The translations under genes were made by a program, and so were the position numbers. DNA of 64,000 nucleotides from Bacteroidota bacterium (GTDB taxonomy: Bacteria > Bacteroidota > Bacteroidia > Chitinophagales > Chitinophagaceae), in the NCBI GenBank assembly GCA_016868585.1, contig VGGR01000007.1, positions 1 through 64,000 on the forward strand, written 5' to 3'. Every line of letters begins with the position of its first letter. Position 1 is the stretch's first letter. The notes under the pieces are model-generated. The model was not told where the DNA came from. It searched no databases and was given only the letters and a program-made list of their open reading frames with translations. Below, one piece after another: positions 4,424 through 9,351 of this stretch.

Positions 4424-4696
4424 TCACCCTTCTTTGATCTCTTCAAAATCCAAATAGTCCTCCTTTCGGCTATTAGCGGTAGGGTTGGTTTTGGCAGCTG
4501 AGGGGGACCCACCAGATCTTGAATCGGCTTGCCTATTTGTAAAACCCCCTTGTTGACTGGCCTGCTGTTCCATCTGTTCCTTCATCTGCCGAAAGCCCTT
4601 TCTGAGTGTTTTTCCGGTCAGGAAAAGGGGTACTACCAGCTTGAAAATGAAGTCAAAAGCAAAATAAGCCAGTAAAAAATAAAAGAAGTATTTCAT
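4424..4696 (-). CDS. DUF4834-like small membrane protein
   Basis: 90 aa, N-terminal TM, Gln/Ser-rich tail; family assignment from memory. Confidence 0.6.
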   Translation of the reverse strand: MKYFFYFLLAYFAFDFIFKLVVPLFLTGKTLRKGFRQMKEQMEQQASQQGGFTNRQADSRSGGSPSAAKTNPTANSRKEDYLDFEEIKEG

Positions 4697-4711: not shown

Positions 4712-4756
4712 TGAAAGGGACCTCTATTGTTTTTTGGTCAAAACGGGAGGATTGCT

Positions 4757-4764
4757 TAAATTTG
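4757..4764 (+). promoter_or_regulatory. -7 element TAAATTTG of the rimP-nusA-infB cluster
   Basis: Exact TAnnTTTG with an upstream TTTG about 20 nt away, suitable as -33 element. Confidence 0.55.
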
Positions 4765-4780
4765 CACCCTGAAGGTGATT

Positions 4781-4811
4781 GAAGGGAACGAATTCGTTCC
4801 CTTCTTCTTTT
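4781..4811 (+). promoter_or_regulatory. Terminator/attenuator-like hairpin in rimP leader: GAAGGGAACGAATTCGTTCCCTTC then TTCTTTTT
   Basis: Perfect 24-bp palindrome with T-rich tail, about 15 nt before the rimP ATG. Confidence 0.6.
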
Positions 4812-4818
4812 TAGCTAT

Positions 4819-5289
4819 ATGGATAACAGCGCCCTGATAAGGAATTTGACAGAGAAGGTAAAACGCCTGATTGAGGTGGAAAACGACCTCTTTTTGGTAG
4901 AAATTCGGATTAAACCCACGAACAATATAAAAGTGTATATCGATGGGGATCAAGGAGTTAGCGTGGATAAACTGGTTGCGTATAACCGGAAATTCTATCG
5001 CCAACTGGAAGAGGAGGCACTATTTCCGGAGGGGGATTTTTCACTGGAGTTATCCTCCCCTGGTTTGGACGAACCGCTAAAACTTCATCGACAGTACGTT
5101 AAAAATGTGGGCCGGCCTGTTGAAGTAGTTCAGGAAGATGGCAGAAAAGTAGAAGGGGTGTTGAAAGCTGCTTGTGAAACAACAATAGAGCTGGAGATTA
5201 CAAAAGGAAAAGGGAAAAAGGCGATTGTCAGCTTGTTGACAATTCCTTTACCAAGTATAAAAACAACAAAAGTTCAAATCAGATTTTAA
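4819..5289 (+). CDS. rimP: Ribosome maturation factor RimP
   Basis: SLELSSPGLDEPLK signature and synteny with nusA-infB. Confidence 0.95.
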   Translation: MDNSALIRNLTEKVKRLIEVENDLFLVEIRIKPTNNIKVYIDGDQGVSVDKLVAYNRKFYRQLEEEALFPEGDFSLELSSPGLDEPLKLHRQYVKNVGRPVEVVQEDGRKVEGVLKAACETTIELEITKGKGKKAIVSLLTIPLPSIKTTKVQIRF

Positions 5290-5316: not shown

Positions 5317-6567
5317 ATGGCCAGTATTAATCTTATCGATGCATTCCAGGATTTTAAAGATGCCGAGAATATCGATCGTCCGACCATGATGAAGGTGGTT
5401 GAGGACGTTTTCAAAACATTGTTACGCAAAAAGTACGGAAGCGACGAAAGCTTTGACGTGATCGTAAACGCAGAAAAAGGCGACTTGGAAATTATCCGTC
5501 GGAGGATGATTGTTGAAGATGGAGAAGTGGAGGATCCCTTAGCGCAAATTGCGTATTCTGATGCTGTTAAAATTGAGCCGGACTTTGAAGTAGGTGAGGA
5601 ATTATATCAAGAGATTGACCTGCTTGACTTTGGTCGTCGTGCAATTTTGGCAGCAAAACAAACCTTAGCCAGTCGCATAGGCGATATCAAGAAAAATGTA
5701 TTGGCAAAAAAATATGGAGATCGTGTTGGGGATATCATCAGTGCGGAAGTTTACCAGGTCTGGAAAAAAGAGATCTTATTACTGGATGAAGAAGGCAATG
5801 AACTTATTCTTCCCAAGAGCGAACAAATTCCTCAGGACTATTTCAAAAAAGGCGAATCTATCCGCGCTGTAATCAGAAGGGTAGACATGAAAAATAATAA
5901 TCCCGTTATCATTCTTTCACGCACCGCTCCGGATTTTTTAGCCAAGTTGCTGGAAATTGAAGTGCCTGAGATCTTTGACGGTTTGATTGTAATCAAAAAG
6001 ATAGTACGTGATCCGGGAGAGCGTGCTAAGGTGGCGGTGGAGTCCTATGATGATCGGATTGATCCAGTAGGTGCTTGCGTAGGTATGAAAGGTAGCCGTA
6101 TTCACGGCATTGTGCGCGAATTGAAAAATGAAAATATTGATGTGATTAACTTCACTACCAATATCCAGCTATTGATTCAGCGCTCACTCACACCGGCTCG
6201 TATTACCAGCATGGAGTTAGATACTGAAAACAAACACGCCAATGTATATCTGGCTCCTGATCAGGTATCGCTGGCAATCGGACGCAGAGGTGTCAACATT
6301 AAATTGGCCTCTGAGTTAACCGGGTATGAGTTGGATGTATACAGAGATAATTTGGATGAAGAGGAAGAAGAGTTTGATATAGATCTGGAAGAGTTTACCG
6401 ACGAGATCGATGAGTGGGTAATTGACGAACTGAAGCGTGTGGGCTGTGATACAGCACGCAGTGTGCTCAAATTATCTGCAGATGAATTGGAGCGCCGTAC
6501 GGATTTGGAGAAGGAAACCATTAACGAGGTTCGTCGGGTGCTCCAAACCGAATTTGAAAATGAATAA
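5317..6567 (+). CDS. nusA: Transcription termination/antitermination factor NusA
   Basis: GACVGMKGSRIHGIVRELKNENIDVI, KH domains, LAIGRRGVNIKLAS. Confidence 0.97.
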   Translation: MASINLIDAFQDFKDAENIDRPTMMKVVEDVFKTLLRKKYGSDESFDVIVNAEKGDLEIIRRRMIVEDGEVEDPLAQIAYSDAVKIEPDFEVGEELYQEIDLLDFGRRAILAAKQTLASRIGDIKKNVLAKKYGDRVGDIISAEVYQVWKKEILLLDEEGNELILPKSEQIPQDYFKKGESIRAVIRRVDMKNNNPVIILSRTAPDFLAKLLEIEVPEIFDGLIVIKKIVRDPGERAKVAVESYDDRIDPVGACVGMKGSRIHGIVRELKNENIDVINFTTNIQLLIQRSLTPARITSMELDTENKHANVYLAPDQVSLAIGRRGVNIKLASELTGYELDVYRDNLDEEEEEFDIDLEEFTDEIDEWVIDELKRVGCDTARSVLKLSADELERRTDLEKETINEVRRVLQTEFENE

Positions 6568-6588: not shown

Positions 6589-9351
6589 ATGTCAGCATTA
6601 AAACTTCCTCGATTACTGGCAGCGGCCAAAGAGTTCAATATTGGACAAGAAACCCTCATTGATTTTTTGGTAGGAAAGGGTTTTGCCAAGGACGAGCTGA
6701 AGCCAACCTCCAAACTATCGGAGGATATGTACCTTTCGCTCCAACAGGAATTCCAGAGCGACAAGGCCGCTAAAATGAAGAGTGACCAACTGGAACTTCC
6801 TAAAACGGCACTGGGCGATGTGCGTAAGAAAAAAGAGGACGAGGAAATTTCATTTAAGTCTGGAAAAATTGCCAAGAAAAAAGAGGAGCCTGCCCCAGCT
6901 CCGGAAAAGGAAGAGGAAGGGAAAGAGGAGGATGGGGAAGAAGCGTCTATAGTTGAAGGCCCAAAAGTGGTAAAGAAGATTGATCTGGATGCTATTGATT
7001 CGTCGGTTAGACCTAAGAAAAGAGCAAAAGCCAAAAAAGAAGAACCTGCGGCCGTAGCTGAAAAGCCTGCAAAAAAGAAAAAGGAAGCAGCGGCAGCACC
7101 AACAAAACAAGAAACTACACCAGCAGCTGTTGAACCTGTAAAACCTGTTGAAGTAGCTCCGCCAACAATCGAAAATATTGAGGTAGCTAAACTGTCGGGT
7201 CCAATAATTCTTGGGAAAATTGAACTTCCGGTCAACAATAATACACGTCCTGTACGAGAAGAAAAAAGGCCACGCAAACGTATTCCCATCACCAAAAAGG
7301 ATGGAACGCATCGGGAAGTATTTATCAATAAAGACGATAACAACAGAACTGATGGTGGTTTTAACAGAGGTCGTGCGGGTAGTCAGCGTCCGCCGCAACA
7401 ACGTGGTAATGTTCGCCGGGAAGACAAACTGATTGACGAAAAAGAAATTCAACGTAAGATCCAGGAAACACAAGCCAAGCTGGCGGGTGGTACGGGGAAA
7501 GGTAAGGGGGTAAAAACAAAACTTCGTCGTGCCAAACGTGAGGAAATGGCGGAATCCATGGGCGAAGAAACAACAGATAATAAGTTACAATTAACAGAGT
7601 TTATCAGTGTGAGTGAATTAGCGAGTTTGATGGATGTAAACTTTGCGGATGTGATCAGCAAGTGTATGAGTTTGGGGATCATGGTATCGATTAATCAGCG
7701 CTTAGATGCTGAAGTAATTGAACTGGTTGCCAGTGAATTTGGCTTTGTGGTGGAATTCATTGATATGGAAAAACAGGTGGAGATGGAAGAGGAAGGAGAA
7801 GAGGAGGATGGGGAAGAAGAGTTAAAACATCGTTCTCCCATTGTTACTATCATGGGTCACGTTGACCATGGTAAAACTTCCTTACTTGACCATATCCGTA
7901 ATGCCAACGTGGTAGCTGGTGAGGCTGGTGGAATTACCCAGCACATTGGCGCCTATTGTGTGGAGATATCAGGGGGAAAAGAAATTACTTTCTTGGATAC
8001 ACCCGGTCACGAAGCGTTTACTGCCATGCGTGCTCGTGGTGCTAAGGTTACGGATATTGCTGTAATTGTAGTAGCAGCAGACGATGCCATCATGCCTCAA
8101 ACGCGTGAAGCCATCAGCCACGCGCAAGCGGCGGGGGTGCCTATGATCTTTGCGGTCAATAAGATCGATAAGGATGGGGCTAATCCGCAAAAAATATATG
8201 AGCAATTATCGCAGATGAATATTTTAGTAGAGGAATGGGGTGGTAAGTTTCAGAGTCAGGAAATTTCTGCTAAAAAAGGACTGAACATCGATAAATTATT
8301 GGAGAAGATTTTGCTCGAAGCGGAGATGCTTGATCTCAAAGCTAATCCGGATCGTGGCGCGATGGGTACCATCATTGAAGCTTCTCTGGATAAGGGTCGC
8401 GGATTTGTGGCAACACTATTGGTGGAAAACGGAACCTTGCGCCCAGGAGATCTGGTAGTGAGTGGTCAATATTACGGCAGGGTGAAGGCCATGTTCAATG
8501 AGCGGAATAAAAAAGAAAAAGAGGCAGGTCCTTCAGCACCGGCTTTGATATTGGGATTGAATGGTGCACCGCAGGCCGGTGAAAAGTTCAAAGTGTATGA
8601 AGATGAGTCGGAGGCAAAAGAGATTGCTAATCGTCGGGCACAAATTTTACGTGAACAAGGTATTCGTACCAAGAAACATATTACCCTTGATGAGATTGGT
8701 CGTCGATTGGCATTGGGAAGCTTCAAGGAGCTGAATGTAATTATCAAAGGTGATGTGGATGGTTCCGTAGAGGCCTTAAGCGACTCTTTACAGAAACTTT
8801 CTACCGATGAAATTATCGTGAAGGTGATCCACAAAGGAGTGGGTCAAATCAACGAAAGCGATATTGTGTTGGCCGAAGCATCGGATGCGATTGTTATTGC
8901 ATTTAACGTTCGTCCTTCACTTCAGGCTACTAAACTGGCAGAGAATGCGGGTATTGAGATCAAGATGTACTCCATTATCTATAATGCCATTGAAGAAGTC
9001 AAGAGTGCCATGGAGGGGATGCTGGAGCCAAAAACACAGGAGAAGATTGTGGCCAATGTGGAAATTCGTGAAGTGTTCAAATTTGATAAAGCTACCGTGG
9101 CAGGTTGTGCTGTACGCGATGGTAAAATCAAACGGGACTCTAAGATTCGTTTGATTCGGGATGGCATTGTGGTGTATCCTACCGCAGAAGGGGTGGTGGC
9201 CGAGCTGGCATCCTTGAAACGGTTTAAAGATGATGCCAAAGAAGTGGTATCCGGTATGGAGTGCGGGTTGACGATTAAAAACTTTACGGATATCAAAGTG
9301 GGGGATGTGGTTGAGGCATATGAATTGGAGGAAGTAAAGAGAACGCTCTAA
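6589..9351 (+). CDS. infB: Translation initiation factor IF-2
   Basis: [23 protein letters not shown]; long Lys/Glu-rich N-terminal linker. Confidence 0.98.

Follow-up and report, generated by a model that had tools for sequence, protein, structure and literature searches.

A conserved terminator-like hairpin as a candidate attenuator in the leader of rimP-nusA-infB in a member of the Chitinophagaceae

The rimP-nusA-infB leader and its hairpin

The window analysed here is the 64,000-nt stretch of contig VGGR01000007.1 from a Bacteroidota bacterium (Chitinophagaceae). An earlier note, made from the sequence alone, had read an operon on its forward strand as rimP-nusA-infB, and profile matches identify the three products as RimP, NusA and IF-2 (Table 1). 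Upstream of rimP lies a 90-aa ORF (4424-4696, minus strand) that had been described as divergent and DUF4834-like; the orientation holds, but the DUF4834 match stays below the cut-off. This ORF has a hydrophobic N-terminal segment and a variable tail, and it adjoins rimP in much of the genus and beyond.

Table 1. Coordinates in the window of the genes of the operon and of the elements of its leader
Feature	Coordinates	Strand	Basis
Probable -33 promoter element TTTTTTGG	4730..4737	+	inferred; sequence
-7 promoter element TAAATTTG (Bacteroidota TAnnTTTG)	4757..4764	+	sequence; consensus from PMC9723704
Terminator-like hairpin, arms GAAGGGAACG / CGTTCCCTTC, loop AATT	4781..4804	+	sequence, folding; conserved, covarying
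U-tract TTCTTTTT, predicted 3' end of the ~43-nt attenuated RNA	4805..4812	+	sequence; tail conserved
rimP, first gene of the operon	4819..5289	+	PF02576 and PF17384 above cut-off; NF002531 best match, below its own cut-off
nusA, 416 aa, proposed feedback effector	5317..6567	+	TIGR01953 above cut-off; NusA_N, S1, KH_5
infB (IF-2)	6589..9351	+	TIGR00487, 770 bits, above cut-off

In the spacer, we observed the perfect 24-bp palindrome GAAGGGAACGAATTCGTTCCCTTC with its T-rich tail, as the earlier note had stated; the hairpin ends 14 nt before the ATG of rimP, where the note had given about 15 nt. The two halves of 12 nt each are 100% complementary, and the hairpin has a 10-bp stem closed by a 4-nt loop. 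Folding of the RNA from 4765 to 4830 gave a minimum free energy of -21.4 kcal/mol (z = -3.3), a value reached by 1 of 200 shuffled sequences, and in the first 20 kb of the window this hairpin is the strongest terminator-like site (10 pairs, with 7-8 in the runner-up). The U-tract contains a C that may weaken termination; a certain leakiness is in any case expected of attenuators.

The -7 element reported earlier is present, and the probable -33 element upstream of it is identical in the closest relatives (L004-L008). We infer that transcription starts near 4769, about 12 nt before the stem; therefore, no space is left for a sensor or for a competing antiterminator hairpin. A sensor or competing upstream structure, as would be expected in an attenuator of the riboswitch or antiterminator type, was not found in the leader, and neither an antiterminator nor a NusA-binding motif was identified in it. 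The leader of about 50 nt had been contrasted with a leaderless pattern elsewhere. This view finds no support in the data from Flavobacterium psychrophilum, in which leaderless mRNAs represent 5.5% and the median 5' UTR is 24 nt (PMC9723704), so that a leader of this length is above the median but not exceptional.

The palindrome is single-copy in the 1.77-Mb genome, even when three mismatches are allowed, which rules out a repeat family or a mobile palindrome. When this genome was searched with a covariance model of the hairpin (R1), rimP scored 45.5 bits and the next locus 22.8. In the wider class, R1 also matched generic terminators; therefore, it was dropped as a phylum-wide probe specific for rimP, and the specificity of the stem for rimP is claimed for this genus only. 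As an additional control, 464 kb of the genome were inspected, and a clean leader terminator was present in 2 of the 125 ORFs with a divergent upstream neighbour: rimP and one gene for a DEAD-box RNA helicase.

The helicase gene (nearest models, CshA/DbpA) carries its own leader terminator (L098:11079-11098; C4:71081-71096 of the same genome, minus strand), formed by the inverse stem CGTTCCC...GGGAACG and a T-tract, with the ATG about 22 nt beyond; conservation extends into its upstream sequence. The inverse motif occurs in 13 of the 39 genomes of the genus, mainly the small ones. Among the loci examined, it was located at the helicase gene in this genome and in four relatives; one copy (in genome G205) lies within another gene, and one locus is cut off. 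The leader of the helicase gene is thus a second candidate attenuator.

Conservation of the hairpin in the genus and across the phylum

The absence of the palindrome from close relatives had been named as an outcome that would count against an attenuator. A motif search for GGGAACG-N2-8-CGTTCCC in the 39 genomes of the genus showed the opposite, since the motif is present in every member with a detectable rimP: it was found in 36 genomes, once in 35 of them and twice in the other, and all matches are located at rimP according to a comparison of coordinates or to tblastn of added regions. The three genomes without the motif (G011, G029 and G034) gave no rimP match either; the completeness of G029 and G034 is rated at 98-100%, and the joint absence of a rimP match and of the hairpin in the three would go back to a gap in the assembly or to a genuine loss. 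Genome G205 has two rimP-like matches, each with a GGGAACG hairpin (C141:1-1200, L202; C128:9000-10700, L203). Its second copy of the motif adjoins the second, diverged rimP match, which could have arisen by duplication or could be a contaminant of the binning.

To compare the leaders within the genus, we used that of the window and those of 29 relatives with RimP proteins sharing 56-90% identity with the RimP of the window. The two 10-nt arms were 100% identical in the 30 leaders, including the outer GAA/TTC, which the search pattern did not demand. The tail showed 87% identity; upstream of the hairpin there is no conserved sequence block, with values of 49% and 39% in the adjacent 20-nt blocks and 34% farther upstream. 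The loop is variable, with 12 different sequences of 3-5 nt. A TAnnTTTG-like element is present 5' of the hairpin in the 30 leaders, which places the hairpin within the leader of rimP itself. Judging by the aligned sequences, this pattern of fixed arms and drifting flanks looks like a structure under selection. The invariance of the stem is greater than a terminator alone needs, and it is just as compatible with recognition by a different RNA-binding protein or by one that binds DNA.

Of 148 genomes from the phylum, 147 yielded a RimP match; the rimP leaders examined numbered 90 and represent 32 families and about 80 genera. A hairpin of -8 kcal/mol or lower ending at a T-tract was detected in 88 of them, versus 12 of 270 dinucleotide-shuffled leaders. 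In all 90 the tail contains 5-7 T in 8 positions, a T-rich tail being demanded by the finder itself, and an exact TAnnTTTG occurs within 60 nt upstream in 48. That almost every rimP leader in the phylum has the hairpin and T-tract supports the attenuator proposed in the earlier note.

The clades differ in the sequence of the stem, and the location of the hairpin is the same. GGGAACG is found in most of the family to which the window belongs and GAGGGGAC in several families of the class; other stems are TCGCCC (families f34 and f52), AGTGGG (f35, f46 and f33), GTGAGCG (f41) and ATAGCCCG (f32 and f37). The 5' arm is C-rich in 30 of the 90 leaders. The motif AGGGGAC-N2-8-GTCCCCT occurs 32 times in the 148 genomes, 20 of them at rimP. 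Compensatory changes, whose search in the leaders of relatives had been suggested, were observed in an alignment of 50 sequences of the two stem types GGGAACG and GAGGGGAC: 93% of the cells are paired, and both sides have changed in 7 of the 10 pairs. The covariation score exceeded those of all 500 shuffles and of all slid controls; the shuffle test is inflated by relatedness, a flaw that the slide test does not have.

Proposed mechanism and alternative explanations

Our interpretation, which we consider probable, is that the hairpin and the U-tract act as a transcription attenuator in the leader of rimP-nusA-infB, with NusA as the likeliest effector; here we infer both the termination and the role of NusA. 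The hairpin followed by the U-tract would constitute an intrinsic terminator in the 5' leader. RNA polymerase would initiate at the start proposed above, the hairpin would be complete by the time about 36 nt had been made, and on reaching the U-tract the polymerase would either release an RNA of about 43 nt or read through into the operon. Since neither a sensor nor an antiterminator would fit into this leader, the share of read-through would most likely depend on a protein that acts at the hairpin and the paused polymerase. NusA stimulates hairpin-dependent pausing and termination. It is proposed as the effector because of this activity, because it is encoded in the operon, and because of the precedent in B. 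subtilis; plentiful NusA would increase termination, and the operon would be turned down. A broader version of this idea, which we regard as tentative, would be a phylum-wide homeostasis of NusA through this minimal leader, in which NusA or a partner may specifically recognise the sequence of the stem, and the stem may have co-evolved separately in each clade (GAAGGGAACG for this genus, AGGGGAC for other families, and TCGCCC, AGTGGG and others elsewhere). If true, this would represent a sequence-recognising control of intrinsic termination that operates without an antiterminator.

An attenuator that responds to an effector other than NusA seems unlikely to us. Candidates would include cold-shock (Csp) proteins, which would melt the hairpin, binding of the stem by RimP or by a ribosomal protein, NusG, and nucleotide-sensitive pausing of the polymerase. 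The invariant stem suggests some sequence-specific reader, feedback by RimP was considered by Naville and Gautheret (PMC2965389), and for E. coli, Bae et al. (2000, cited in PMC6511841) proposed that Csp proteins cause antitermination of nusA-infB. However, E. coli gives no sign of the read-through that Csp antitermination would be expected to cause (PMC6511841), and it is for NusA that direct experimental precedent exists in B. subtilis (PMC12288461). We consider it quite improbable that the hairpin is a stabiliser or processing signal of the mRNA 5' end (a barrier to RNases or an RNase III site) and no terminator, even though its position, very close to the 5' end, is one in which hairpins can stabilise an mRNA, and the E. 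coli operon has two RNase III sites. A stabiliser does not need a U-tract, and at the examined sites a T-tract, which the finder favours, directly follows the stem and is kept in clades with unrelated stems; besides, the combination of hairpin and T-tract is rare in shuffled leaders.

The perfect palindrome, its invariance in the genus and its proximity to the promoter would also fit an operator in the DNA, bound by a dimeric protein that regulates the rimP promoter. This explanation is very improbable, since the spacing of the half-sites varies (the loop is 3-5 nt in the genus and larger beyond it), the arms show paired substitutions, and the T-tract is conserved on one side only; the variable spacing and the paired changes led us to disfavour the operator. 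We give almost no credence to the idea that an ordinary terminator, belonging to a transcript from upstream or from the opposite strand, stands before rimP by chance, although the wider class does contain generic terminators that resemble it in sequence. The neighbouring gene upstream is divergent and is separated from the hairpin by a promoter element. Read on the minus strand, the palindrome has no T-tract after it. According to crude ORF calls, the nearest upstream ORF is divergent at 39 loci and co-directional at 19, and the hairpin is kept in both situations; therefore, it does not serve the neighbour. A terminator for the divergent gene is ruled out by these two observations, and the assertion of the earlier note that the hairpin does not simply terminate an upstream gene stands.

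Comparison with known systems

The kind of element described here is already known, both from the rimP-leader of Naville and Gautheret (2010) and from a structured rimP 5' region in Flavobacterium, and the novelty implied by the earlier note is smaller than it suggested. What is new is the survey across the phylum, the layout of about 43 nt that leaves no room for an antiterminator, the invariant stem of the genus, and the failure of the Rfam rimP model. In Bacteroidota, few studies have addressed how transcription termination is controlled. A terminator-like hairpin that almost the whole phylum has kept ahead of nusA, in a leader too short for a riboswitch, offers a simple test case for NusA feedback outside Bacillus and E. 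coli, and the invariant stem raises the testable question of which factor reads the sequence.

The rimP-leader was presented as the most ubiquitous predicted bacterial attenuator, with rimP first among the targets and NusA named as the best candidate (PMC2965389); Bacteroidota are absent from the main text of that study. The leader of the window agrees with this description in having a terminator hairpin and a T-stretch located 4-130 nt before rimP (here 14 nt), a G-rich 5' arm and a C-rich 3' arm (here GAAGGGAACG/CGTTCCCTTC, followed by TTCTTTTT), no visible antiterminator, and a conserved stem sequence. In contrast, their stem is GGGc...gCCC and that of the window is GGGAACG...CGTTCCC; a GGGC..GCCC stem was found in only 8 of the 90 phylum leaders. 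The Rfam family RF01770 (rimP) corresponds to the same operon and position, with a model of 102 positions and a gathering cut-off of 47 bits. This model found nothing in the window at E values up to 1, and it exceeded its cut-off in 0 of the 148 phylum genomes; weak matches in 16 genomes were not located at rimP when coordinates were compared. The RNA element thus goes undetected in the phylum by Rfam's rimP model. As for other Rfam families, two chance matches far below the cut-off were obtained in the window, neither of them credible.

Within the phylum, a structured 5' region upstream of rimP was listed in 2021 for Flavobacterium psychrophilum, with no mechanism (PMC9723704), and for Bacteroides the literature gave no described attenuator at rimP beyond this list. 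The Flavobacterium region resembles the one reported here in being structured, in preceding rimP, in its conservation (there in Flavobacteriaceae) and in having no Rfam match; the difference is that other clades of the phylum have different stems. For B. subtilis, a 2025 review (PMC12288461) describes an autoregulation of NusA through NusA-stimulated intrinsic termination in the leader. A terminator-like hairpin precedes the nusA operon in the window as well, as its anatomy and conservation indicate. Both leaders carry such a hairpin before the NusA operon, which in B. subtilis serves feedback on NusA and here is proposed to do so; the ylxS(rimP)-nusA leader is about 180 nt long versus about 50 nt here, and the stimulation by NusA that is established there is predicted here. 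In E. coli, the transcripts of the operon increase when NusA-dependent termination is reduced (PMC6511841). The terminators t1/t2 of metY-rimP-nusA-infB are likewise located upstream of rimP, and NusA negatively affects the expression of that operon; in contrast to the minimal leader described here, they follow a tRNA gene and several promoters.
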